This document shows, piece by piece, positions 7,375-38,573 of a DNA stretch of 40,676 bases. Origin of the DNA: a virus; IMG/VR virus record IMGVR_UViG_3300044678_001129, positions 1-40,676 of that record. The stretch is one strand, 5' to 3'. Numbering within the stretch: the stretch's first letter is position 1; every line of letters begins with the position of its first letter. Made by a program: the position numbers and the translations under genes. Below the pieces are notes generated by a model that was not told where the DNA came from, made no database searches, and saw only the letters and a list, made by a program, of their open reading frames with translations.

Positions 7375-7561
7375 GGGTAGTCTCCTCTGCTTGTTGTAAT
7401 TCCGCCAACACGTTTTCCGCTTCGTCCAGTGTGGTCACTTCTGGGTACAGGGCGGCAATCTGTTGCAGCCCCGCATCCACAGCACCACGGGCGGCGTCGT
7501 ATGCGGAACGCATGCGGGCGAGTTCGTTGGCGGCCTGGTTGTACTCTTGTTCTGGTGTCAT
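7304..7561 (-). CDS. Small coiled-coil protein between SbcD and the SbcC C-terminal half
   Basis: Predicted 85 residues, almost entirely alpha-helical and rich in Ala, Glu and Gln (NQAANELARMRSAYDAARG, ENVLAELQQAEETTRDEFL). A weak AAGGA site lies ahead of the ATG. It sits exactly where the ascending coiled coil of an intact SbcC would be, between the hook-bearing N-terminal half and the Walker B half, so it may be a third fragment of the arm or a coiled-coil partner. It overlaps the next gene by 71 bases. No independent function can be assigned. Confidence 0.6.
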   Translation of the reverse strand: MTPEQEYNQAANELARMRSAYDAARGAVDAGLQQIAALYPEVTTLDEAENVLAELQQAEETTRDEFLEQLTAFRATYIPVGTPGN

Positions 7562-7633
7562 GTCTATTCCTTGCGGCGGAGCAGGTTGCCGTCTTGCACG
7601 GGGCGTGGCTCCACAACCACAACCCCCGGTTCC

Positions 7634-9573: not shown

Positions 9574-10042
9574 AGCGGAGCTCCTTAAACTGTTCCGTCA
9601 CTGGGTCGGCCATCAGCATGGCGGCCAGAACGTGGGTGTGTGTGATGCGGAAGTCTGCTCTACGGAACACACTGGTCCACGCACCGATACCGGGGTGCCA
9701 CGGGTCCGCGTCACGGTCCCGCAAGATCAGCACCCCGTCGCGGTCGTAGATGTTGCAGCACTTTGTGAAGGCCTCTGTCTCCACAACGTGTTTCATGTAC
9801 AAGCGGCCCAGCAAGTCGAGCCGGTATTGGTAAAGGCTCAGCGGGCGGCCCTGCACCATGCGGCCATACTTTTGGCAGGCCAAGCGAAGGTTTTCACAAA
9901 CAAGCCCCGGCACCACCTCCACAGGCCCCAGGTGCTTTGGGTCCAGACGCTTGTGCCAAGAGCTGGCCTGGTGCAATGCTGTGTCAAGCCGGACACCCAC
10001 TTTGGGGTTTCCGGCTGTGTAGTTGGTCACGTAAACGGTCAT
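9566..10042 (-). CDS. Unknown protein upstream of the split SbcC
   Basis: Predicted 158 residues. The ATG overlaps the CsrA stop and the 3' end carries the Shine-Dalgarno site for SbcC, so it is embedded in the recombination operon. It has a Lys/Arg- and Tyr-rich middle (LSLYQYRLDLLGRLYMKHVV), a single LILRDRDADPW acidic motif near residue 105 and no membrane segment. I do not recognise a family. A role in recombination or DNA processing is suggested only by the neighbours. Confidence 0.6.
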   Translation of the reverse strand: MTVYVTNYTAGNPKVGVRLDTALHQASSWHKRLDPKHLGPVEVVPGLVCENLRLACQKYGRMVQGRPLSLYQYRLDLLGRLYMKHVVETEAFTKCCNIYDRDGVLILRDRDADPWHPGIGAWTSVFRRADFRITHTHVLAAMLMADPVTEQFKELRFV

Positions 10043-10206
10043 CGTGTGTCCCGTGGTGGCTTTGCAGCCTCCGGCCTTTGGATGTTGGTGTCCGGTGGTG
10101 CGGTCACGCCCAGTTGCACCCGCCCACCCTTTACTCCGATCACAGTGACCTCGATGCCACCGTCAATGATGATCTTTTGCCCTGGCAGGCGTGTAAGGAC
10201 TAACAT
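10039..10206 (-). CDS. csrA: CsrA/RsmA-family RNA-binding regulator
   Basis: A 55-residue gene starting MLVLTRLPGQKIIIDGGIEV and continuing VTVIGVKGGRVQLGVTAP, which matches CsrA along its whole beta-strand core (bacterial CsrA starts ML(I/V)LTR..G and has (V/I)LGVKGNQVRIGVNAP). The two RNA-contact zones are kept: L4/R6 in strand 1, and R44 in the short IQR segment. The C-terminal helix is replaced by a Pro/Lys/Arg tail (PEAAKPPRDTR). Known CsrA dimers bind GGA in hairpin loops or leaders and change translation or mRNA stability. A GGAG site precedes the ATG, and the stop overlaps the next ATG. It is therefore expressed with the recombination genes. Confidence 0.9.
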   Translation of the reverse strand: MLVLTRLPGQKIIIDGGIEVTVIGVKGGRVQLGVTAPPDTNIQRPEAAKPPRDTR

Positions 10207-12063: not shown

Positions 12064-12434
12064 AGATCCCTCTTCAAACAACCGGTCCGGATGTTGCAGC
12101 GGGGGCACGTGCCGTCCGCCCTCTTTAATGGGCACGGGGTGCCCTGCACTTTCTTCCATGCGTGGTACGTCCTGCTCACCAGGTTGTCCACCACAAGCCG
12201 GGTCCACATGTCCAACTGAAGCCCAACGGCCTCCTTCAGTACAAGGTCCAACGCCTCGTTCTTACAACGCTCCCACAGGACGCGGGATGCTGTGCTGCCC
12301 GGTTGGCATGGGGCAACCTTCAAGGAGGCCTCCATGTTGCGGGCTGCAACGGATAGCACACCCCACGCGGCAGCCTCCAACAGGTACTGACGTTCCATAA
12401 GCGGGCGGTCGTGGTTGTAAAACCGAACAGTCAT
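12060..12434 (-). CDS. Unknown protein with C-terminal Cys cluster
   Basis: Predicted 124 residues, linked to both neighbours by ATGA overlaps. The N-terminal half is helical and hydrophobic (LLEAAAWGVLSVAARNMEA). The C-terminus carries CPLKRADGTCPRCNIRTGC, a probable zinc-binding knuckle with a basic context. It lies between the 137-residue gene after RecA and the flap nuclease, so it likely acts on DNA, but no family is recognised. Confidence 0.6.
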   Translation of the reverse strand: MTVRFYNHDRPLMERQYLLEAAAWGVLSVAARNMEASLKVAPCQPGSTASRVLWERCKNEALDLVLKEAVGLQLDMWTRLVVDNLVSRTYHAWKKVQGTPCPLKRADGTCPRCNIRTGCLKRDL

Positions 12435-16032: not shown

Positions 16033-16961
16033 TTTGCCCCCTTGGAGTTCTGGATCCACACATCGCCACAGGCACGCCACAGGCCCGGCTCTTTGCTGTC
16101 GTAAAACGGGAACTGGAAGATGCTCAGCACACGCATCGCGTGGCCATTAAAGCCCCGCACGAGTTGGCTCTTTGCGATGCCCAGCATGGCCCACCGTATG
16201 GACTCCACTTCCGCTTCCTGCTCCTTGAGGTCCTGCAGGCACTTCACAACGGCCAGCCAGTTGCCACCGTTCATACTCTGGTAGAGTTCCCACGTGCCCT
16301 TCTCACTGGAGGCTTTGCCAATGGTGTCCAACCGCATCTCACCCGTGACCATGCTGGCCTGTTCCAGTGCCACCAGCCCGGCCCGTGGGCTACCACCAGC
16401 CACCTCCACAATGGCGTCCAGCTCCTTGCCGGTAAACTCAAAGCCCTCGCCCTTGCACACGTGCTCCAACAGGGCCTTCATTTCAGCGGCCTTCAGGCTG
16501 GCCACCTTCACCTCTGTGCAGCGGGTGTGGATGGCTGTGCTGAGCTTGTCCGGTGCCGTGGTGGCCAGGATGTGGTACACGTAGTCCGGGCTGTCCTCCA
16601 GCATCTTGAGCATGGCCTCCTGTGCTGGTTTGCTGATTTGGTGTGCCTCGTCATAGAGGAAGACCTTTGTGGCACCAAACAACGGGCGGCTGTCGCAGTT
16701 GGCCATCACGGCACGGATGGTGTCAATGCCGTTGAAGTTGGCACTATTAAACTCGCGGAACTCGTTCTCGTGGCAACGCAAGCCCCCAGTTGCCACCATG
16801 CGGGCGATGGTTGTTTTGCCACAGCCCGACGGCCCTGTCAAAAGCAAAGCGTGTGGCGGCCCGTCCTTGCCCTTGAGCATGCGGCCCAGCACCGTGAGGG
16901 CGGTCTTGTTGCCAAACATCTGCCCCGGTGTTTGGGGTCTGTACTTGTGGTAAAGGCTCAC
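16029..16961 (-). CDS. DNA polymerase clamp loader ATPase
   Basis: AAA+ protein of 310 residues. It starts SLYHKYRPQTPGQMFG, the clamp-loader N-terminal motif. Walker A is TGPSGCGKT (about 42-50), the Walker B is VFLYDEAH (D104, E105), sensor 1 is ILATTAPDKL, and TRC (146-148) stands in the SRC arginine-finger position. It should load the sliding clamp encoded at 20287-21300 onto primer ends for the family A polymerase. No separate small gp62-like subunit was found, so it may form a homomeric loader. GTGA overlaps join it to the polymerase gene. Confidence 0.9.
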   Translation of the reverse strand: MSLYHKYRPQTPGQMFGNKTALTVLGRMLKGKDGPPHALLLTGPSGCGKTTIARMVATGGLRCHENEFREFNSANFNGIDTIRAVMANCDSRPLFGATKVFLYDEAHQISKPAQEAMLKMLEDSPDYVYHILATTAPDKLSTAIHTRCTEVKVASLKAAEMKALLEHVCKGEGFEFTGKELDAIVEVAGGSPRAGLVALEQASMVTGEMRLDTIGKASSEKGTWELYQSMNGGNWLAVVKCLQDLKEQEAEVESIRWAMLGIAKSQLVRGFNGHAMRVLSIFQFPFYDSKEPGLWRACGDVWIQNSKGAK

Positions 16962-18373
16962 TCGATCTTTTCCTTATCGGCCCAACAACCGCCAACGGGT
17001 GTGGCTTCAATTTCCACGTCCACGGTTGTACAAATGAAACGGAAGTGGTTTGGCAGATCCACAGTCATGATCTGCCTCGCCAGTGCCACATACGCATCGA
17101 ACTCGTCCACATACACATCGGCCAAAATGCTGTCATGAATTTGGCCCACCACGCGGGAGCGGAAGCCCTGCTCCTCCAGTGCCCGGTTCAGTTGGATCAG
17201 GCACCACAGCAAGCAATGGAAGGCGGCACCTTGGACCGGGTAGTTGATACACTGGTTGCGGGTCATTTCCCCTTCTATGCGGAAGCCGGTGAGCATGTCG
17301 ATGCCACCCGTTTCCAAGTACGCTTCGTAATGGCGTTCCCGCCACCGTTTATAGATGGGGTGGGTCACGTCCCAGAAGTTGTGCTCCACGTCTTTGATGT
17401 GTGCCATGTAACTGCCAGGCGTGGGCTCTGCCCGTTGGCCCTTGGCTTTGTGCAGCACACCCAACTCACGGAAGCCACAGGCATGCAGGTGGTCCAGTAC
17501 GGTGCCGTCGCCCAAACGCAAGTCCCCGGCATGCTTCCACAAACTGGCAGCACAGCTCGCAAACCAATCCCCGTAAAACTGGCTGAACACGAAGTCGCCC
17601 TTGGCGGCCTGCCGCATCGGTTTGGCGTCCTTCTTGGCCACGGTGGTCATGTCCAAGTTGAAGCAGTGCCCCGCCTGCTCTGTGTGCATGTCATACCCGG
17701 TGGCCAGGTAATGGAGCATCGTGGGGTCTTTGTGATACCACGCGGCGGCATGGACTTCGATCCCGCTGAAGTCAGACTCCACAAGGCGGCACCCTTCCGA
17801 GGCCAAAAACGCACGGCGGATCAGCGGGCCGGTCTCTGGGTTGCGGATGGGGATGTTTTGGAAGTTGGGGTCGCTGGATGTGCTTCGGAAGGTGCGTGCG
17901 ATGTTGAGGTTGTATACGGGGTGCAGGCGGTCGCCCCACATGTTGCGGAGCATGCCCCGGATGTAGGTGCTTAGAAGCTTTTCCAACTTCTGTGTCTTTA
18001 AGTACTCGGCCACCCATGGGCTCTTGAGGGCACTTAGAACTTCGTCGTCCGCAGTGTACTTTACCTTCCCGTCTGTTTCGCTGAGCGGCCCGTGGTACTC
18101 ATAGCCCAGCGTCCCGAATAGGATCTGCCCCAACTGCTCCCGGCTGTCCAGGTTGGTTTGCTGTCCATAGCGGGCCTGCCACTCGTTATAGATGCGGCTG
18201 CCTGTTTTGAGGCGTGTTGTGGCCCCCCGGATCTTATGCTCCGTGTCGTGTTCCAGTTGCTGCAGGTAAGGCAGGTCCATCCGGATGCCACGTGACTCCA
18301 CAACGCTCAGGGCCAACGTTCCGTCGTGGATCAGTTGGCAGGCCTCTGGCGTGGACGGTCTATTCACAAACAT
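16958..18373 (-). CDS. polA: Family A DNA polymerase, polymerase domain only
   Basis: The 471 residues cover only the thumb-palm-fingers part of a Pol I/T7-type enzyme. Motif A is VESDFSGIEVHAAAW (D201, E206), motif B is RQAAKGDFVFSQFYG (R254, K258, Y267), and motif C is GQIHDSILADV (H413, D414). The second acidic residue of motif C is Ser rather than Glu, and the Lys to Tyr-Gly distance in motif B is one residue longer than in Pol I. There is no exonuclease domain; a DnaQ-like proofreading domain is encoded at 19079-20287. It is the main replicative polymerase of the phage. Confidence 0.92.
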   Translation of the reverse strand: MFVNRPSTPEACQLIHDGTLALSVVESRGIRMDLPYLQQLEHDTEHKIRGATTRLKTGSRIYNEWQARYGQQTNLDSREQLGQILFGTLGYEYHGPLSETDGKVKYTADDEVLSALKSPWVAEYLKTQKLEKLLSTYIRGMLRNMWGDRLHPVYNLNIARTFRSTSSDPNFQNIPIRNPETGPLIRRAFLASEGCRLVESDFSGIEVHAAAWYHKDPTMLHYLATGYDMHTEQAGHCFNLDMTTVAKKDAKPMRQAAKGDFVFSQFYGDWFASCAASLWKHAGDLRLGDGTVLDHLHACGFRELGVLHKAKGQRAEPTPGSYMAHIKDVEHNFWDVTHPIYKRWRERHYEAYLETGGIDMLTGFRIEGEMTRNQCINYPVQGAAFHCLLWCLIQLNRALEEQGFRSRVVGQIHDSILADVYVDEFDAYVALARQIMTVDLPNHFRFICTTVDVEIEATPVGGCWADKEKIE

Positions 18374-18376
18374 TAT

Positions 18377-18547
18377 TCAATCCCTGTTCCCGGCTGTGCG
18401 GCCTGCCCGCCTGTTGTACTTGCCACCATGTGTGGATCGTGCCCCGTGTGTAATCTTTTGGCACACGGGGCAGATCCTATTCCCCGGCCCTGTGCTATGA
18501 AACAGGGTTTGGCACTTCAGGCACTTCCGTGGCTTCGTTTGCGTCAT
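18377..18547 (-). CDS. Small zinc-finger protein (56 aa)
   Basis: Starts at ATG 18547 and carries RKCLKCQTLFHSTGPGNRIC followed by PVC, a CxxC...CxxC knuckle, then a basic Gly/Arg tail (GGKYNRRAGRTAG). Small proteins with this KCLKC..F.S.G..NRICP.C pattern are common in phages and are thought to bind nucleic acid or the transcription machinery, but the function is unproven. It overlaps the MazG-like gene by 53 bases in a different frame and lies 3 bases before the polymerase start. Confidence 0.75.
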   Translation of the reverse strand: MTQTKPRKCLKCQTLFHSTGPGNRICPVCQKITHGARSTHGGKYNRRAGRTAGNRD

Positions 18548-19082
18548 TAGGTCTCTCCACCCAATCGCGTTTGAGTACTTTCTTTGCAACGGGCAACAAG
18601 ATGTCCGCCACATAATCCTTCAGATCCACCGTTGGGGTCGACCGGTTGAGGCTGACCCACAGCACCGCAACGGCCTGCCGTTGTGCGGTCACAAACACAT
18701 GCAGGTCATTAAAGCCCCGGATGCCCTGTGCTTGTTTTAAGTGGGCACGGCATAGCAACGCAATCCCAGCGGTGATCCCATTGATCGGATTGCCCATGTA
18801 ATACTTCGGGTCCACGCCTGTGGTTTGTGCAACCTCCTCCAAGTCCAGCCCAGCCCGGCAACAGTAGTCGCACAGGTACACGCCAATGTCACCAAAGGCG
18901 TCCAAGGCCTCTTCCGCACTGACGGCTTCTGCCAGCTCCCCGGCTTCCTCCGCAAGGCCCAACAGTGGGGCCACGTGTTCTAATTGTACGCTCTCCAACA
19001 CACCGTGCTTCGCAATCTGGCTGCCAAAGTTGCGGCGGGACCAGTTGCCAATCTGCTCTTGGATGTTCTTTAATACGCTCAC
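18495..19082 (-). CDS. MazG-like nucleotide pyrophosphohydrolase
   Basis: The 195-residue protein contains the all-alpha NTP-PPase signature: GLAEEAGELAEAV (EExxE) followed by LDAFGDIGVYL (the DxxGD helix). Members hydrolyse (d)NTPs or (p)ppGpp and in phages may tune nucleotide pools or the host stringent response. The C-terminal 30 residues are polar and probably disordered. The start is GTG overlapping the exonuclease stop. The C-terminus is unusual in sharing DNA with the small zinc-finger gene. Confidence 0.8.
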   Translation of the reverse strand: MSVLKNIQEQIGNWSRRNFGSQIAKHGVLESVQLEHVAPLLGLAEEAGELAEAVSAEEALDAFGDIGVYLCDYCCRAGLDLEEVAQTTGVDPKYYMGNPINGITAGIALLCRAHLKQAQGIRGFNDLHVFVTAQRQAVAVLWVSLNRSTPTVDLKDYVADILLPVAKKVLKRDWVERPNDANEATEVPEVPNPVS

Positions 19083-20287
19083 GTGAATAGTTCCTGGAAT
19101 AATGGGTGTTCTAAAATCTGCATCTGCATGTACGCTACATCAAACTCAACAGCACTGTCGACCCCGTTGTATTGCAACAACTGGTCTATGTCGATCTTGT
19201 GAATGTCATTCACATCATTAGATGTTCCCCCTGTGTCGAAAAACTGGTGGATGTGGCTGTCGTATAACGGCCACCCGGTTAGAATATAAGCCTGCTTCTT
19301 TATGCTGGTAAACATAGGCCGGTTGTCGATCACGTGGGCCATGTTCATGGTGTCCCATGCCAGGCCCTGCACCCCAAACCCAAACACGGCACGCGTCCAA
19401 CGGTCCTCGAACTTCATGTTAGATGCGAACTTAGGTTGCGGCCCGGCAAGGTACTCGGCCACAGCCTGCACCACGTCGCCAACCATGGGGCAGGCAATGG
19501 TCCGCTCCCCGTTCTCGCAGATGCTGATGCTGTAGATCTTGCGGGCCGGGTTCTCCGGCTTCAGCATGTTGGTTTCATAGTCAAAGGCAGTGGGGCCGCC
19601 CCTTGCGGTGATCCCCCGGATGATCTTGGCGGCCACTTTGTGGTCCCGTACGATGCGGACCTGCTCGTTGTAATCCCGGTGGCCTGTTGGCGGCCCACTG
19701 TGCCGCAACTCCAACGCGGCACGCATGTGATGCTCAAAGAACTTCTCCCGTACGTTGCCGGGGCTGTTGGCAAGGCGGGCCGGGTCCTGCACTGGGCACA
19801 GCCACGCCAATGGGTTGCGGCTGGGGATGCGGGTGCCAGCCCACTCATCTATCGTCTTGAGCTCTTCCGTGTCGTAGCTTTCCCCCACAACGGACTGGAG
19901 GGCGTACTGGCCACACAGGACCACCACACTGGGCTTCAGCTCGTTGATCCGCTCCATAAGAAGCGGCCTGCACCAGCGGGCACGGTCGCCACTGGGTTTG
20001 CCACAGCATGCCAACGCACTGGTCACCCACAGGTCGGCGTCCCACGACAAACCAGCCCCACGTACCAGCTCCCGCAAACGCGTCCCCGTACTGCCGCCCC
20101 ATGCGACGCCAAGGCCATCCCCGGCCACGTCTGGTGCATCGGCCACCAGCATGACCCCGGCACGGCCCTGGCCCTGGACGGCCATCTTTGGGCTGATGCA
20201 GCCATTGAGCAGGCCACAGGCCCCACACTGGGGCCGGGTGTGTTTGGGTTCCGGTACAACAAAGAGGCTCTCGCTAAAGAAGCCCAT
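19079..20287 (-). CDS. Fusion of a type 4/5 uracil-DNA-glycosylase-like domain and a 3'-5' exonuclease
   Basis: The 402-residue protein has two parts. The N-terminal ~190 residues follow the Fe-S uracil-DNA glycosylase layout: CGAC near residue 22, then VTSALACCGKP and RWCRPLLMERINELKPSVVV, giving four Cys in the family order. The catalytic motifs are changed: ADAPD replaces GEAPG, and a PVQDPARL segment stands where HPS is expected. The C-terminal part (from ~232) is a DnaQ-type exonuclease: FDYETN (Exo I), ASNMKFED (Exo II) and YNGVD (Exo III). It probably proofreads for the exonuclease-free polymerase downstream. ATG 20287 follows AAGGAT. Confidence 0.82.
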   Translation of the reverse strand: MGFFSESLFVVPEPKHTRPQCGACGLLNGCISPKMAVQGQGRAGVMLVADAPDVAGDGLGVAWGGSTGTRLRELVRGAGLSWDADLWVTSALACCGKPSGDRARWCRPLLMERINELKPSVVVLCGQYALQSVVGESYDTEELKTIDEWAGTRIPSRNPLAWLCPVQDPARLANSPGNVREKFFEHHMRAALELRHSGPPTGHRDYNEQVRIVRDHKVAAKIIRGITARGGPTAFDYETNMLKPENPARKIYSISICENGERTIACPMVGDVVQAVAEYLAGPQPKFASNMKFEDRWTRAVFGFGVQGLAWDTMNMAHVIDNRPMFTSIKKQAYILTGWPLYDSHIHQFFDTGGTSNDVNDIHKIDIDQLLQYNGVDSAVEFDVAYMQMQILEHPLFQELFT

Positions 20288-21424: not shown

Positions 21425-22522
21425 CTATGCGGCGGCACGTTCCGTGTCACGGGCTTCCGCCTGTGCGTCGTTTTCCACACCAAAGTATCCACGCAGGATG
21501 TGCCATCCGTTGCGGATGGCAAAGCCGGTCTCCCGTGGGTTCTTGGCGTCTTCCGGCATGTAGGCTTCCACCGCGTCGATCATTTCCTGGGTCACACCGT
21601 TCTGGATCCCAAACTCTGCCAGCACCACACCGGCAAAGTATGGCCGGGTCAGGCCAAAGCGGGCACCCACACACACAGGCATGTCAGCTTCCGCAATGCC
21701 GTGGCTGGTTGCCATGGCCTCTGCCGTGTCCCATCCCATGTATCCACGCAACACGTGCCATCCGTTGCGGATGGCAAACATGCTCTCCCGTGGGTTGGCG
21801 TCCCCGTACTGGGCGTCCACAGCGGCCACCATTTCCGGTGTCAGGCCACCCAACACACCGTGCTCCAGCAACACCTGTCCGCACACATACGGGCGTCCCG
21901 CCGTGTACCGCACCCCCACACACTTGCTCTTCGCCTCTGCAGGCTCCGCAGGGGCCACAGGGGCCTTTTTGGCGGCAGTCTTTTTGGCTGGGGCTGGTGC
22001 AGGCTCTGCAGCGGCTGCAGGTGCCTCAGCGGCGGCCACAGGGGCCTTTTTGGCTGGGGCCTTTTTGGCCGGTGCTTTGGTGGCAACAGAGTCCACAGCA
22101 ACTTCAACAGCGGTGTCCGCAATGGTGCCCTTCTTGGCTGGTGCCTTCTTGGCTGGTGCCTTGGCAGGCGGTGCTTCTGCAGCAGGCTCAGCGGGGGCCA
22201 CTGGTGCCTTCTTGGCCGGGGCCTTTTTGGCCGGTGCCTTGGCGGCTGGTGCTTCCGGTGCAGCGGCTGGGGCAGCGGCGGGGGCAGCGGCTGTTTCCGC
22301 TTCCACAATGTCGATCTCCTTGGCCTTCAGCAGTGCTTTAATGTCCGCCACAATGGTGGTGTCCTTAATGCCCGCCAACACCTCGTCCGTGGCAATGGTT
22401 GCCAGGCCCATGTTGATGGCGTTGGTAAGTTGCAGCACCTTCCAGTTCTTTGCGGTGCGGCGGCCCAGTGCAGTGAAGATCTCAATTCCGCGTGCCAGTG
22501 TCAGGGTAATGTTCTTGGCCAT
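21425..22522 (-). CDS. Histone H1-like linker protein with two C-terminal repeat domains
   Basis: Predicted 365 residues. Residues 1-72 form a small helical basic domain. Residues 75-200 are an Ala/Pro/Lys linker with repeated KAPAKKAPAKKAP blocks like the C-terminal tails of eukaryotic H1 and bacterial Hc1/HctB proteins. Two tandem repeats of about 66 residues follow (201-267 and 284-350), each containing RPY..G.VL.E.G.. and F.AIRNGWH.LRGY; the repeats are similar but not identical. The gene has its own promoter and terminator and an AAGGAACC leader, so it is probably made in large amounts. A nucleoid-like or DNA-compacting role is inferred from the linker; the repeat domains have no assigned function. 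Confidence 0.75.
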   Translation of the reverse strand: MAKNITLTLARGIEIFTALGRRTAKNWKVLQLTNAINMGLATIATDEVLAGIKDTTIVADIKALLKAKEIDIVEAETAAAPAAAPAAAPEAPAAKAPAKKAPAKKAPVAPAEPAAEAPPAKAPAKKAPAKKGTIADTAVEVAVDSVATKAPAKKAPAKKAPVAAAEAPAAAAEPAPAPAKKTAAKKAPVAPAEPAEAKSKCVGVRYTAGRPYVCGQVLLEHGVLGGLTPEMVAAVDAQYGDANPRESMFAIRNGWHVLRGYMGWDTAEAMATSHGIAEADMPVCVGARFGLTRPYFAGVVLAEFGIQNGVTQEMIDAVEAYMPEDAKNPRETGFAIRNGWHILRGYFGVENDAQAEARDTERAAA

Positions 22523-24429: not shown

Positions 24430-25075
24430 TCTGTATCACCTTTGCTACGTTGGGGTCAATAACACCGGCCAACTGGTCGGCGTCTTTACAATCAGGAAGC
24501 CAGTACACACACCGGGACAGGAGCGGTGGGCAGCCGTCCCATCCCTGCCACTTGCGGGCCTTGTAGGACAACCACGCGGCGGCCAGGGGCCACCCACAGG
24601 GCTGTCCGTGGCACACGTTGAAGATGTGCAGTTGCATCCGCAGGGCCACCACAGCGTCAGATGGTGTGGTGCCACCGGGCCACTCCAATGCAAACCGCAC
24701 CGACCACGCCTGCCACTTACCACCAGCGGGCAACCCTGGCAGTTCTGTAAACATGTGGGGGGCCTTCTGTTTTGCCAGGGCCAACAGCGGTCCAAACTGC
24801 TCCCGAAGGGTCTCCGGCCTTGTGTAATTCATTTTCGGCATGTACTGCTCAAGGCACGTGATCAACAGCTCCGCTTCCTGTGCAGTAAACGACTTCAGGA
24901 TCATGCGGAAGGCATGGACCCACTTCTTGGTCGCTGGTTTGCTTACATGCATCCGCACCCGTTGCGACATGAGCCGCATGTAACGGCAGGCCAACTCGGT
25001 GGCCACTGGGTCCGGCTCGGGTTCAGGTGCAAAGATGTTCAAGTTTGCCACAGCCATATCCATTCCCAAAAACAT
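24410..25075 (-). CDS. Unknown protein between primase and helicase (possible helicase loader)
   Basis: Up to 221 residues, mostly helical, with an N-terminal acidic patch (FAPEPEPDP), a basic stretch (MSQRVRMHVSKPATKKWVHA), and a C-terminal half rich in Trp and Cys. No ATPase motif. Its place between primase and helicase, overlapping both, suggests a replisome organiser or helicase-loading factor, as found at this position in several phages; this is inference. ATG codons at 25075, 25063 and 25057 are all in frame; I list the longest. Confidence 0.6.
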   Translation of the reverse strand: MFLGMDMAVANLNIFAPEPEPDPVATELACRYMRLMSQRVRMHVSKPATKKWVHAFRMILKSFTAQEAELLITCLEQYMPKMNYTRPETLREQFGPLLALAKQKAPHMFTELPGLPAGGKWQAWSVRFALEWPGGTTPSDAVVALRMQLHIFNVCHGQPCGWPLAAAWLSYKARKWQGWDGCPPLLSRCVYWLPDCKDADQLAGVIDPNVAKVIQSGNYTD

Positions 25076-28227: not shown

Positions 28228-29237
28228 TATTGTTGCGGCTCCACGTTTACAAGCTCGGGAAGTTCGGCGGCGGCCAACGCTGGGTCGCCCTTTACAAACA
28301 CAAGGATATTCTGGTGCAGTTTGACCACCTTGCGGTGTCCCCGCAAGAAGTTGGTGTTGGCACGCAACGCACCAGTTCCAACAGCATTGATCAGGATGAT
28401 GTCATTGTAATAGGTGGCACCCGCATCCTCAAAGGCACGCACCGTGTCCCCCACAAAGTCGACCATCTTGCCCTTGCCACCTTTGGGCCTGTAATTGGCC
28501 ACCACCCAAACCACAAAACGGTTCGGTTTCAGTTTGGCAACAGCGGCGGCCACGATGGCACGGTAGCCCTCCAGGAAGGCCTCGTGGGTGCGGTTACTGA
28601 TGTCGGCTGGGTCGTCGCTATACACCTCCAGGTTCCCATACGGCGGGCAACTGAAAATCATGTCCGCTTCGCCGTCGTATGCGGGCACGTTTACAAGGCT
28701 GTCACCAGGCACCCAGATGGGCCGTGTCTGCAGGAGTGGGCCATGCTTCTGTTTCAGTGCCAGTGCCTGTTCGTTGTTGGCCTGCACCTGCTCCGCACGG
28801 AGTTCAAACCCCACATACTTGCGGCCCAACACACTGGCCACAATCCCACGCACACTGCCACCAGCAAACGGGTCCCAAACCACTTGGCCCGGTGCCGACC
28901 ACCACATGTACGCAAGCTCGCACACCATGGGGTCAAACACACTGGTCCCGGTGTCCTCCGCACCGTTGACCGTGATCCTGGCCTTCTTGCCGTCTGCCAG
29001 TGTGGTGGGCACACCGTAGGTCATGGCGGCATCCCGGCCCAGCTCCGATTTAATGCCAAGGCCCAGCCACGCACGGCGGCGGTCCAACCAAAACGCGTCC
29101 CGTGTGTTGAGCGTGCTGTAGGGTGCCACAATGCAGCGGCTGCTCAGCGGCCCACGGTTGTCGTCCTTGGCGGCCATGTCCATGACCCCCAGCCCGGTTC
29201 CGTAAAGAGCTTTGTCTGTATCCACTTTCTGTTTCAC
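28227..29237 (-). CDS. DNA methyltransferase (N4/N6 type)
   Basis: The 336 residues contain the SAM-binding motif I VVWDPFAGGSVRG (about 119-131) and, downstream, motif IV FSCPPYGNLEVY (about 194-205). The order (SAM motif first, catalytic PPY second) is that of an alpha/gamma-like amino-methyltransferase; the SxPPY form is often cytosine-N4. It likely modifies phage DNA against restriction or controls packaging or replication. The start is GTG overlapping the upstream stop. No restriction partner is nearby, so it is probably an orphan. Confidence 0.87.
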   Translation of the reverse strand: MKQKVDTDKALYGTGLGVMDMAAKDDNRGPLSSRCIVAPYSTLNTRDAFWLDRRRAWLGLGIKSELGRDAAMTYGVPTTLADGKKARITVNGAEDTGTSVFDPMVCELAYMWWSAPGQVVWDPFAGGSVRGIVASVLGRKYVGFELRAEQVQANNEQALALKQKHGPLLQTRPIWVPGDSLVNVPAYDGEADMIFSCPPYGNLEVYSDDPADISNRTHEAFLEGYRAIVAAAVAKLKPNRFVVWVVANYRPKGGKGKMVDFVGDTVRAFEDAGATYYNDIILINAVGTGALRANTNFLRGHRKVVKLHQNILVFVKGDPALAAAELPELVNVEPQQ

Positions 29238-30136
29238 TGGTAATCTCCTAAAAATCCTGTCGGCACTTCGGTCACTTTCTTGCGTTGTACAACACTGCCC
29301 TTCCGCATCTTAATCACTGGCACCATGCGGCCCTTGCCGGTGTGGTAGATGGCCGGGTGTGGCCGTCGCATGTGCGGGATGCTCTCCAACCCTGCACCAA
29401 CGCTGAAGCCAAAGCGGCCATTCGCACGGGCACGGGCAGCCAGTGCTTCCAGCTCTTCCGGTGTGGCGTTGCGGGCCTTGTCCGCGTCCCTGTTGAGCAC
29501 CTGTGGCGTAATCAGCTCCGGGTTGTTGTTCAACAGGCACAGGCAACAGGCAATCCGCACCAGTTTGAAGAGGGCCTGTTGGTCGTTCTGATAGATGGTT
29601 GTGTAGTTGCTGCCATCCGTTTGGTCCTTGTACGGCATCACATCCAACCACTCCTGGAGGGTCTTGCTGTCATCCGGCGGCGGTGCGTACACACTGGCCA
29701 CCATGAGCCCACTTTCGTCCCGCTCCCCAAAGTCACCACCAACCACAATAAACGGGTTCACTTCCTGGCCGTCCAGGCTGGTGCCCTGCCACCGTGTGGG
29801 CTGCCATGCAATAAACATGGTCCGGGCCGTCTTGTTGTCCGGGTGCTCCGGGAACCGCACCAACAAGTTCCGCAAGCCACCGGGCGGCTGGAGCGTGGTT
29901 GGTTTAATGTCGAGGGAGAGTTTGGCAAAGGGTTCTATCAGGCCGGGGTACAGATCATAATAGGGGCGGCCTGCAGCAACCCAGTCCCGTTCCCACATGG
30001 CGTGCCGGATGGCAAAGGTGCCACTGTCCGGGTGGTTCATGACCATGTTGTATATGCCCTCCCTGGTCATGTTGCTGTGCTTGCCAAACCGTTTCAGCAG
30101 GCGGGCCGTGTCGTCGTGGTATTCGTAAAACTTCAT
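29234..30136 (-). CDS. Unknown phage protein with AcrVA2-like C-terminal pattern
   Basis: The 300 residues start MKFYEYHDDTARLLKRFGKH after GGGGAG. The middle has a beta segment, then LFKLVRIACCLCLLNNNPEL near 195-214, and the C-terminus has SIPHMRRPHPAIYHTGKGR followed by KMRKGSVV and VTEVPTGF. From memory, AcrVA2 and its widespread phage relatives also have a hydrophobic LL..LC...E segment followed by an RPH.R..H...Y..G.G...V... ending. This similarity is impressionistic and functional equivalence is not claimed. No catalytic motif is present. Confidence 0.6.
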   Translation of the reverse strand: MKFYEYHDDTARLLKRFGKHSNMTREGIYNMVMNHPDSGTFAIRHAMWERDWVAAGRPYYDLYPGLIEPFAKLSLDIKPTTLQPPGGLRNLLVRFPEHPDNKTARTMFIAWQPTRWQGTSLDGQEVNPFIVVGGDFGERDESGLMVASVYAPPPDDSKTLQEWLDVMPYKDQTDGSNYTTIYQNDQQALFKLVRIACCLCLLNNNPELITPQVLNRDADKARNATPEELEALAARARANGRFGFSVGAGLESIPHMRRPHPAIYHTGKGRMVPVIKMRKGSVVQRKKVTEVPTGFLGDYQ

Positions 30137-31136: not shown

Positions 31137-31164
31137 AGTGTAACACATGTTACACACTTTGCAA
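31137..31164 (-). promoter_or_regulatory. Promoter with perfect-arm palindromic operator
   Basis: Minus-strand TTGCAA (31164-31159), 16-bp spacer, TACACT (31142-31137). The palindrome GTGTAACACATGTTACAC (31138-31155; 8-bp perfect arms, 2-base centre) covers the -10 and most of the spacer, the usual position of a repressor site. Confidence 0.7.
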
Positions 31165-31176
31165 GGCCAAAAGTTT

Positions 31177-31419
31177 CTAAGGGGCAACACTTGCGTAGAG
31201 GAGGCCCGTTGCAAGCTCGGCGGCCATGGTGGTGGCCACATGGTTGCGGAGCCACTTCTTGGCGTCGGCCAGTGTGCTGGAGTGTGGGGCAAACACTGTG
31301 GTCACCACGCGGCCACAACTGCCGTCCACAAGTTCAAACGCCCACAGGCCAAAGCCACGCGGGTTGGTGCCGTGTGATTTAACGTATGCAAGGTTGTCGA
31401 TCTCAAGTTTGTGGGCCAT
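31177..31419 (-). CDS. Unknown early protein (80 aa)
   Basis: Starts at ATG 31419 (MAHKLEIDNLAYVKSHGTNP) after AACAAAGGAACC. It has a beta-type start (GFGLWAFELVDG), a segment VTTVFAPHSSTLADAKKWLR, and an Ala-rich helix at the end. It stands behind its own promoter (31475-31502). No family recognised; the upstream frame to 31551 crosses the promoter and is not used. Confidence 0.65.
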   Translation of the reverse strand: MAHKLEIDNLAYVKSHGTNPRGFGLWAFELVDGSCGRVVTTVFAPHSSTLADAKKWLRNHVATTMAAELATGLLYASVAP

Positions 31420-31474: not shown

Positions 31475-31502
31475 AGTGTAGCGGGCAGATTAATCAAAGC
31501 AA
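31475..31502 (-). promoter_or_regulatory. Sigma70-like promoter for the 31177-31419 gene
   Basis: Minus-strand TTGCTT (31502-31497), 16-bp spacer containing TAATCTGCC, TACACT (31480-31475), then TTGGCCGATACC. The spacer and downstream bases are nearly the same as in the 34682-34709 promoter. Confidence 0.7.
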
Positions 31503-31514
31503 CACCAAAGGGCA

Positions 31515-31532
31515 AACATTCTGCAGAATGTT
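31515..31532. promoter_or_regulatory. Perfect 18-bp palindrome upstream of an early promoter
   Basis: AACATTCTGCAGAATGTT is its own reverse complement over 18 bases. It ends 12 bases upstream of the -35 of the 31475-31502 promoter, a position suited to an activator or a second regulator. It differs in sequence from the GTGTAACA operator. Confidence 0.5.
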
Positions 31533-31743
31533 GCGAAGTAGGAAATACCACGCACTTATCCCCCCTGCCAATGGGCTGGGCCTGTTGGGCTTTGCCTTGG
31601 CGGGTGTCGGAAGTCTGGTGTTACGTTGCGGCCACCGGCTTTGTTCTTTGCGTACCCTTGCGGGCTGGCATGGGGGCCGGGTTGCTGTGTTGGCATTGCC
31701 CGGAATTAAATTCAAACCCAAAGAACCGCCCCGGTTTGCAGTG

Positions 31744-31771
31744 TTGTGGATCACTGCCCCCCGGCTACAAT
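31744..31771 (+). promoter_or_regulatory. Candidate plus-strand promoter of a small RNA
   Basis: TTGTGG (31744-31749), 16-bp spacer, TACAAT (31766-31771). It is the only plus-strand promoter-like element in the coding-free gap and the first predicted transcribed bases (about 31778) begin the 5' arm of an RNA stem. Confidence 0.45.
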
Positions 31772-31777
31772 ACACCC

Positions 31778-32009
31778 CGCATGTTGTGAGTGGTTGATCT
31801 GACACTTTCCAGGGCGGCAGATCCCCGCAACATGCGGCGACCACTTCCAGTGCCCTTGTGTTTGCGGCAACAAGCTCTCTGAGTCTTGCTATACCGTATC
31901 CGGGGAGGGTGGTGGCGGGACCGTTATAGCGGCAGGCGTTGCAGGATTGCAACTCCCTGCCGCAAGAACCAAAAAAGGCCACAGGGCTGCAAACCCAGTG
32001 GCCTTTTTT
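31778..32009 (+). ncRNA. Candidate structured phage small RNA (about 230 nt)
   Basis: The segment lies between the candidate promoter and a strong terminator, and no convincing gene is seen on either strand. Visible stems: CCGCATGTTG (31777-31786) with CAACATGCGG (31828-31837); as an alternative, AGTGGT/ACCACT (31789-31794/31840-31845) enclosing GATCTG/CAGATC and CCGCA/TGCGG, a three-way junction; and a 14-bp hairpin at 31929-31963 (GCGGCAGG/CCTGCCGC, GTTGCA/TGCAAC) with GGAT as its loop. The GGA loop resembles CsrA targets, and the phage encodes CsrA. It could alternatively be only a long terminator or regulatory spacer. Confidence 0.4.
31971..32009. terminator. Bidirectional Rho-independent terminator
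   Basis: AAAAAAGGCCAC (31971-31982) pairs with GTGGCCTTTTTT (31998-32009), plus an inner GGG/CCC. It ends the candidate plus-strand RNA and, on the minus strand, the DUF932-like operon whose stop is at 32024. Confidence 0.9.
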
Positions 32010-32023
32010 GTGTCCTGCCATTC

Positions 32024-32749
32024 CTATGCCACCGCCACCGTGGGCAGCAAGCTTCGGAAGGCGTTGATCTGCGTCATCTGCTCCAACGGCGGGTTCTTTT
32101 TCACAACCCATGTAAAGGCGTTCAGGAGTGCCCAACTGGTGCCCATGCCGTGGTCGCTGAAGCGTGGGTTGTGGTACTCCGCATCCACTTCCCCGATCCG
32201 GCTCCAGCACATGATCCCCTGTCGGCCAGCCTCGCACAACACGGCCTCCTCCATGGTGCGTGTGAGTGGTGTGTGCTGCAGGTTGGCCACAATGGTCTTC
32301 ACGTTGGCGGCCTCCTCCCGGTACTTGCCAAACGCCTCCTCCAGGTTGGCGGCCAGGTCAAAGTTCCTTGTGTGCTTCTTGCGGAGCACCACCTGGCCAG
32401 TGGCACACCCGTTGTGGCACACAAACACATTCGTCCCCACCACCAACCGCAACGTCCGTTCCATGTTGTTGCTGGTCAGGACCCCCATGCTAAACGTCTG
32501 CCCCTCTGGTGCAGGCAGGCCGGGGATGTCCAAGGCCAACGCACCGGCCAGGCTGGTGCCGCCTTTGCTTACACTGTAAACCTCCTCCGTGACCTTCCAA
32601 CCCATAAACAGGGCCTGGTCCTTCAGGGTTTCCACAAGGGCACCGTGTTGGATACCCTGCCACACCGGCCCCGCCCCTTTGGGCCGTACCAGTGGGATCT
32701 CATGGAGCTGTTCCAGTGTTAGTTTTTCGCCTTTGATCACATTAATCAT
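32024..32749 (-). CDS. DUF932-like phage/plasmid protein
   Basis: The 241 residues start at ATG 32749, overlapping the previous stop. The central region, TLRLVVGTNVFVCHNGCATG followed by a basic RKKHTRNFDL segment, and the C-terminal WALLNAFTWVVKK match the general pattern of DUF932 proteins (a G..VFVC.N motif, then a KH basic motif, then a late W..N..T segment), found on plasmids and phages with unknown function. It ends 15 bases before a strong terminator. Confidence 0.7.
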   Translation of the reverse strand: MINVIKGEKLTLEQLHEIPLVRPKGAGPVWQGIQHGALVETLKDQALFMGWKVTEEVYSVSKGGTSLAGALALDIPGLPAPEGQTFSMGVLTSNNMERTLRLVVGTNVFVCHNGCATGQVVLRKKHTRNFDLAANLEEAFGKYREEAANVKTIVANLQHTPLTRTMEEAVLCEAGRQGIMCWSRIGEVDAEYHNPRFSDHGMGTSWALLNAFTWVVKKNPPLEQMTQINAFRSLLPTVAVA

Positions 32750-33487: not shown

Positions 33488-33515
33488 AGTGTAACATGTG
33501 TTACACCGGGCACAA
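33488..33515 (-). promoter_or_regulatory. Promoter with palindromic operator for the DUF932-like operon
   Basis: Minus-strand TTGTGC (33515-33510), 16-bp spacer, TACACT (33493-33488). GTGTAACATGTGTTACAC (33489-33506) fills the spacer and -10, with perfect 8-bp arms and a TG centre. Confidence 0.65.
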
Positions 33516-38189: not shown

Positions 38190-38461
38190 CCAACAAAACA
38201 AGGCAGCCCACAACACTGGCAAGGGCAGCCAGTACCACGTTCCTTCGGTTGCGTGGTGTGGAAATGTGGGAGGGGTATTTGGCCCAGCGGCGGCCCACTG
38301 GTGTGGAGGTGTTGCCAGCTCCACGGGCGGTGTTCCTTGAGGGGTTGCGGATTGGATTTGAGGCGGCGTTTCTAACAATTTTGTCGCTGGAGGAGAACGG
38401 TGGGCAAGTGGATGCAAGCAAAGTGGCACCGCCTGATCCTGTGGATCCGGTGGGAGCTTAG
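38186..38461 (+). CDS. Small unknown protein (91 aa)
   Basis: I chose GTG 38186, overlapping the methyltransferase stop. The product has a basic N-terminus (TNKTRQPTTLARAASTTFL), MWEGYLAQRRPTGVEVLP and an acidic, Pro-rich end (VAPPDPVDPVGA). No motif or family is recognised. It overlaps the next small frame by 62 bases. Confidence 0.5.
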   Translation: MTNKTRQPTTLARAASTTFLRLRGVEMWEGYLAQRRPTGVEVLPAPRAVFLEGLRIGFEAAFLTILSLEENGGQVDASKVAPPDPVDPVGA

Positions 38462-38573
38462 AATTGGGTGGACATGCACGATGCGTGTCTACATCAACAG
38501 GGACGGGGTCCGGTGGTCGGAGTCCGTGTGGTATTGCAAGGCAACGGGTGAAAAGAGAAGGGTCCAAGGGTAA
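38400..38573 (+). CDS. Small Trp/Arg-rich protein (57 aa)
   Basis: A GTG 5 bases after GGAGGAG opens MGKWMQAKWHRLILWIRWEL, continuing to a basic end (CKATGEKRRVQG). Seven Trp in 57 residues and high basic charge suggest a membrane-associated or nucleic-acid-binding peptide. It overlaps both neighbours, ending at the next ATG (TAATG). Not recognised. Confidence 0.5.
   Translation: MGKWMQAKWHRLILWIRWELRIGWTCTMRVYINRDGVRWSESVWYCKATGEKRRVQG

Follow-up and report, generated by a model that had tools for sequence, protein, structure and literature searches.

A candidate structured RNA gene in the only large non-coding gap of a tailed phage genome

Introduction

Stand-alone structured RNAs are sparsely documented in phages outside well-studied prophages. 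The question raised by the locus considered here is whether a gap between two minus-strand phage genes holds such an RNA. An earlier note had read positions 31744-32009 as an RNA gene of no known class, and had suggested that it might be a sponge or partner of the CsrA protein encoded by the same phage. The sequence features that it described were confirmed. We analyzed the window in full, that is, the whole virus record of 40,676 bases. On balance, we lean towards a plus-strand gene, running from about 31777 to 32009, for a stand-alone non-coding RNA that would bind a protein. The locus is probably an orphan phage small RNA gene, with a function that we can only infer.

Results and discussion

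The genome has a single large non-coding gap

According to gene modeling and profile searches, the record is that of a tailed phage. Its minus strand carries a replication module (polymerase, clamp loader, clamp, DnaB-like helicase, primase, and recombinase), and its plus strand the terminase genes. The candidate RNA sits in a region of small genes flanked by the replication module and the terminase; a minus-strand block of these, without known function, occupies 30-34.6 kb. In the gene model, all genes neighboring the candidate are on the minus strand, and two of them flank the gap:

32024..32749, minus strand: DUF932 domain protein gene (Pfam PF06067, E 7e-7; gene model), convergent with the candidate RNA
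31177-31419, minus strand: 80-aa gene, the next minus-strand gene (gene model)

The 604-nt gap separating these two genes is non-coding in all six frames. Its coding score is at most 1.2 in every 30-codon window, compared with a median of 8.4 for known genes, and codon scores in no frame reach the typical coding range, in agreement with the earlier description of 31744-32009 as free of coding sequence. A minus-strand open frame at 31494-32237 (247 codons) was considered as a hidden protein and rejected (score −17.9 below 32023). The other long gaps tested from the initial gene model (7375-7633, 12160-12430, 24430-25022, and 38190-38572) each hold a coding-like frame, which leaves the 604-nt gap as the one large non-coding gap in this genome. 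No tRNA or tmRNA was found by search. The most extreme fold windows of the 40.7-kb genome, on both strands, lie in this gap.

A leader of almost constant sequence, (C)AACCAACAAAGGAACC, lies directly before the start codons of several small genes (31419, 31098, 30693, 34260, and 34626 on the minus strand, and 39048 on the plus strand). A degenerate copy of this leader at 31675-31693, within the gap, suggests that a gene may have been lost there.

The structured region consists of strong and ordinary parts

On the plus strand, the structured region can be divided as follows:

31777..32009, plus strand: predicted non-coding RNA of ~233 nt, with a predicted 5' end near 31777-31779 (stem 6 nt past the -10 hexamer, terminator, fold, and non-coding status)
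31777..31837, plus strand: 5' stem-loop of 61 nt, with a 12-bp outer stem and an inner GATCTG/CAGATC stem
31788..31846, plus strand: alternative three-way junction of the helices GAGUGGUU/GACCACUU, GATCTG/CAGATC, and CCGCA-ACA-UGCGG (constrained fold)
31849..31928, plus strand: middle part with several weak hairpins, by itself ordinary (z 0.06)
31929..31963, plus strand: hairpin of 14 bp (8+6) with a GGAU tetraloop within CAGGAU (fold against shuffles)
31971..32009, plus strand: intrinsic terminator, bidirectional (−24.4 and −26.9 kcal/mol on the two strands; 0 shuffles as good)

With the terminator included, the plus strand folds with a z of −4.4 relative to shuffled sequences; without it, z is −2.65, and 3 of 300 shuffles fold as well. 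Much of the fold stability of the candidate belongs to the terminator, which the DUF932 gene would need in any case. Folding is no weaker on the minus strand (z −6.2, or −4.0 without the terminator).

The outer 5' stem comprises ten Watson-Crick pairs, followed by a U-G and a G-C pair. Its 10-bp part had been recognized in the earlier note, and 31777-31786 and 31828-31837 are indeed 100% complementary. The energy of the stem-loop is −28 kcal/mol (z −3.4), a value matched by 1 of 200 shuffles. The three-way junction proposed as an alternative does exist, but by constrained folding the 5' domain is ~6 kcal/mol weaker in this form (−22.2 versus −28.4), and it and the outer stem are mutually exclusive. 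A pseudoknot holding both the 10-bp stem and the GAGUGGUU/GACCACUU helix is sterically impossible and was rejected; these helices are alternatives.

The GGAU hairpin, found where the earlier note had placed a 14-bp hairpin with a GGAT loop, has a z of −4.7 to −5.5, with no shuffle as good, and its loop has an unpaired probability of 1.0. Base-pair probabilities show the RNA to be nearly all paired, with four short open stretches: UCCA (31808-31811), CUAUA (31889-31893), GGAU (31944-31947, the most exposed), and the terminator loop. Because the RNA is almost entirely paired, presentation of a structure to a protein is likelier than antisense pairing. Against the gene starts of the phage itself, shuffled RNA gave duplex energies just as good (mean z −0.07), and antisense action on phage genes is therefore not indicated.

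The terminator, also described as strong in the earlier note, is strong on both strands. On the minus strand it lies 14 nt past the stop codon of the DUF932 gene, and it probably also ends the DUF932 mRNA.

A candidate promoter of the phage's own spacing class precedes the first stem

The promoter-like sites that bear on the locus are the following:

31744..31771, plus strand: candidate promoter TTGTGG-N16-TACAAT, with TTGTGG at 31744-31749 and TACAAT at 31766-31771 (sequence, spacer class, and matrix score)
31475..31502, minus strand: promoter TTGCTT-N16-TACACT for gene 31177-31419 (pattern search and matrix)
31923..31952, minus strand: rival promoter-like site TTGCAA-N18-TATAAC, overlapping the GGAU hairpin (score 9.9)

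The plus-strand site is present as the earlier note had given it, although a stricter consensus scan omits it, fewer than 9 of 12 positions being matched. In a regular-expression search of the whole genome for TTGNNN-N(12 to 22)-TANANT, a spacer of 16 gave six intergenic and two coding sites, whereas spacers of 12-15, 17, and 18 gave no intergenic site. Five of the six intergenic sites precede minus-strand genes (34709, 33515, 31502, 31164, and 22630), and the sixth is 31744 on the plus strand. Since five other intergenic promoters of this phage have exactly the same spacing, the promoter reading at 31744 is supported.

A matrix was trained on the five minus-strand sites, with the plus-strand site outside the training set. 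By this matrix, the plus-strand site ranks ninth among 81,296 genome positions, five of the nine being training sites, and it is the top-scoring intergenic position outside the training set. Its score of 9.4 is nevertheless the lowest of the class, the five training promoters scoring 11.2-17.6 in leave-one-out tests. The first stem starts 6 nt past its -10 hexamer, at the expected transcription start (31777).

The TTG...TANANT form of these promoters suggests that the main sigma factor of the host RNA polymerase is used. The polymerase would start near 31777 and stop at the terminator ending at 32009, so that the RNA gene would converge on the DUF932 gene and share its two-way terminator. The RNA itself would most likely act by offering a protein its structure, chiefly the open GGAU loop. 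The anatomy, the absence of coding sequence, the exceptional folding, and the promoter class are what the analysis shows, and from there transcription, strand, protein binding, and any role in infection are inferred. Several points weigh against this best reading: the plus-strand promoter is the weakest of its class (-35 TTGTGG), folding is equal or better on the minus strand, and the middle third is unremarkable.

The promoter set of the phage can be written TTGCNN-N16-TAYACT, with spacers of strictly 16 nt and an almost exclusively intergenic distribution. Two promoters of the class have their spacer and -10 overlapped by perfect 18-nt palindromes, at 33489-33506 (GTGTAACATGTGTTACAC) and 31138-31155 (GTGTAACACATGTTACAC), which are probably operators of one repressor. 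Another perfect 18-nt palindrome, AACATTCTGCAGAATGTT at 31515-31532, closely precedes the -35 element of the 31502 minus-strand promoter and is possibly a further operator.

A possible terminator with relics and no RNA gene

The gap might hold no RNA gene at all: the two-way terminator would end the DUF932 mRNA, and the hairpins would be transcription barriers or relics between two minus-strand units. The position of the terminator just past the DUF932 stop, the decayed-looking copy of the early-gene leader in the gap, and the chance-level folding of the middle part all speak for such an arrangement. It leaves unexplained, however, both the 61-nt 5' stem-loop together with the 14-bp hairpin, and the placement of a promoter of the phage's class exactly ahead of the first stem. 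We consider this account unlikely, though to be taken seriously. Bidirectional intrinsic terminators between convergent units are a familiar parallel, and 31971-32009 should work both ways by its A and T runs; unlike plain terminators of this kind, it is preceded by a promoter and another 190 nt of structured sequence.

A possible structured RNA on the opposite strand

The strand of the RNA cannot be read from its folding, given a z of −4.4 for the plus and −6.2 for the minus strand. Assignment to the plus strand is argued for, short of proof, by the promoter and by the layout, convergent with DUF932 and with a common terminator. A minus-strand RNA, either free-standing or forming the long 5' leader of the 80-aa gene, would start from TTGCAA-18-TATAAC near 31952. 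Besides the folding, this agrees with the strand of all neighboring genes and with a promoter-like site scoring similarly to the plus-strand one. The 18-nt spacer is off for this phage, however, all five reference promoters having 16, and a start at this site would interrupt the GGAU hairpin and place the terminator upstream of the transcript. On that strand, only weak terminator-like sites (31718-31742) are listed before the next gene. With a strong promoter of its own at 31502, the 80-aa gene need not take the structured region as its leader. Taken together, we regard a minus-strand RNA as improbable.

A possible CsrA connection

As a special case of the plus-strand RNA gene, the transcript could be a CsrA-binding sponge or partner in the manner of CsrB or McaS. 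The phage does encode CsrA (10039-10206, minus strand, 55 aa; PF02599, E 7e-18; phrog_9500). The protein starts MLVLTRLPG, and a by-eye alignment matches the arginine in its NIQRPE segment to RNA-binding arginine 44 of E. coli CsrA. Relatives of csrA occur in 61 of 50,697 phage records, mostly from Vibrio and Pseudomonas, and since the gene is thus found in dozens of phages, its presence is by itself no evidence for an RNA partner. AAAGGA is found at the ribosome-binding site of several early genes of the phage, which makes CsrA targets in this phage conceivable.

The exposed CAGGAU loop shares 6 of 7 letters with the CsrB repeat CAGGA(U/A/C)G (consensus from PMC7652899). GGA is not enriched in the candidate RNA, with 3 occurrences against 3.3 (3.29) expected; only one is exposed, and ANGGA is absent from its plus strand. 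CsrA sites selected by SELEX are mostly hexaloops with four or fewer contiguous pairs (PMC7652899), whereas the candidate hairpin, a tetraloop on a 14-bp stem, is far stabler and has a smaller loop. Of the suggestion in the earlier note, the encoded CsrA and the open CAGGAU loop hold up, but the lack of GGA enrichment and of ANGGA, the single site, and the overly stable stem do not fit it, and a CsrA sponge or partner appears distinctly improbable. A single site falls short of a CsrB-type sponge. Phage or host CsrA is nonetheless the sole named candidate partner for the GGAU loop, and the loop sequence may point weakly to it. It is very doubtful that the candidate stands for a structured phage RNA of a new class, known so far from one phage, whose CAGGAU loop would bind the phage-encoded CsrA; if it were true that the RNA binds this protein, the phage would carry a complete regulator-plus-RNA module.

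Relation to known RNAs

Rfam at gathering score gave no match for the candidate RNA. Matches at E values up to 5 were weak and terminator-driven and were rejected; they include CsrC (RF02767), at 21.1 bits against a cut-off of 279. No homologue was found by blastn with the candidate in phages, plasmids, and all fetched loci, or by exact DNA patterns in viral contigs. Among viral contigs, no relatives were found of the neighboring DUF932 gene, 29234-30136, the SNF2-like helicase, or the 80-aa gene, and for DUF932 the searches of phages and of a set with one genome per species were negative as well. Relatives are remote, with the terminase at most 55% and the polymerase at most 41% identical. 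The loci of terminase and polymerase relatives contained no similar RNA by blastn, and nothing comparable was recognized in six terminase-relative loci inspected for gaps and promoters.

The locus has a promoter of its own (by sequence match only), a Rho-independent 3' terminator, and no encoded protein, which are the marks of a small RNA gene. The view that this is an RNA gene of no known class is borne out by the promoter class, the start at the first stem, the terminator, the non-coding status, the exceptional fold, and the Rfam result, but not as to strand, which folding leaves unsettled. Such a complete gene-like anatomy, in a phage without a close sequenced relative, makes the locus a good candidate for direct testing.

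Like CsrB, CsrC, and RsmZ, the candidate is a stand-alone non-coding RNA with a terminator and a CAGGAU-like element in a hairpin loop, in a genome with csrA. It departs from the CsrB/CsrC type in GGA enrichment, in score under the Rfam covariance model, and in exposed sites, having one exposed GGA compared with the 22 GGA sites of CsrB (PMC7652899). McaS and GadY, which bind CsrA and also base-pair, offer a parallel in general idea as small RNAs with a CsrA site outside the CsrB family; unlike in these, no accessible antisense seed was found in the candidate, and its complementarity to phage gene starts is at chance level. With IpeX, 24B_1, and SprY (reviewed in PMC12197685) it shares being phage-borne, although the known phage small RNAs have been studied mostly in prophages. 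Those RNAs act on host mRNAs or small RNAs, mostly by pairing, whereas the candidate is nearly all paired, and no sequence relation is apparent.

Other features of the region and genome

A replication origin or DNA-level regulatory site, with the palindromes acting as DNA, would suit the sole large non-coding gap, the palindromes themselves, and the location near the cumulative GC-skew minimum and a switch in gene direction, but is highly improbable, as no iterons were found, the structured part has no AT-rich unwinding region (0.37-0.48 AT in 60-nt windows versus a genome 95th percentile of 0.52), and the skew merely tracks gene orientation.

Elsewhere in the genome, the matches to DNA polymerase (region 16958-20287, minus strand) fall into two genes, 19079-20287 and 16958-18373, which an unrelated 195-aa gene separates. 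A 21-nt perfect hairpin sequence, TGCCATCCGTTGCGGATGGCA, occurs in two identical copies (21501-21521 and 21756-21776) within gene 21425-22522 on the minus strand.
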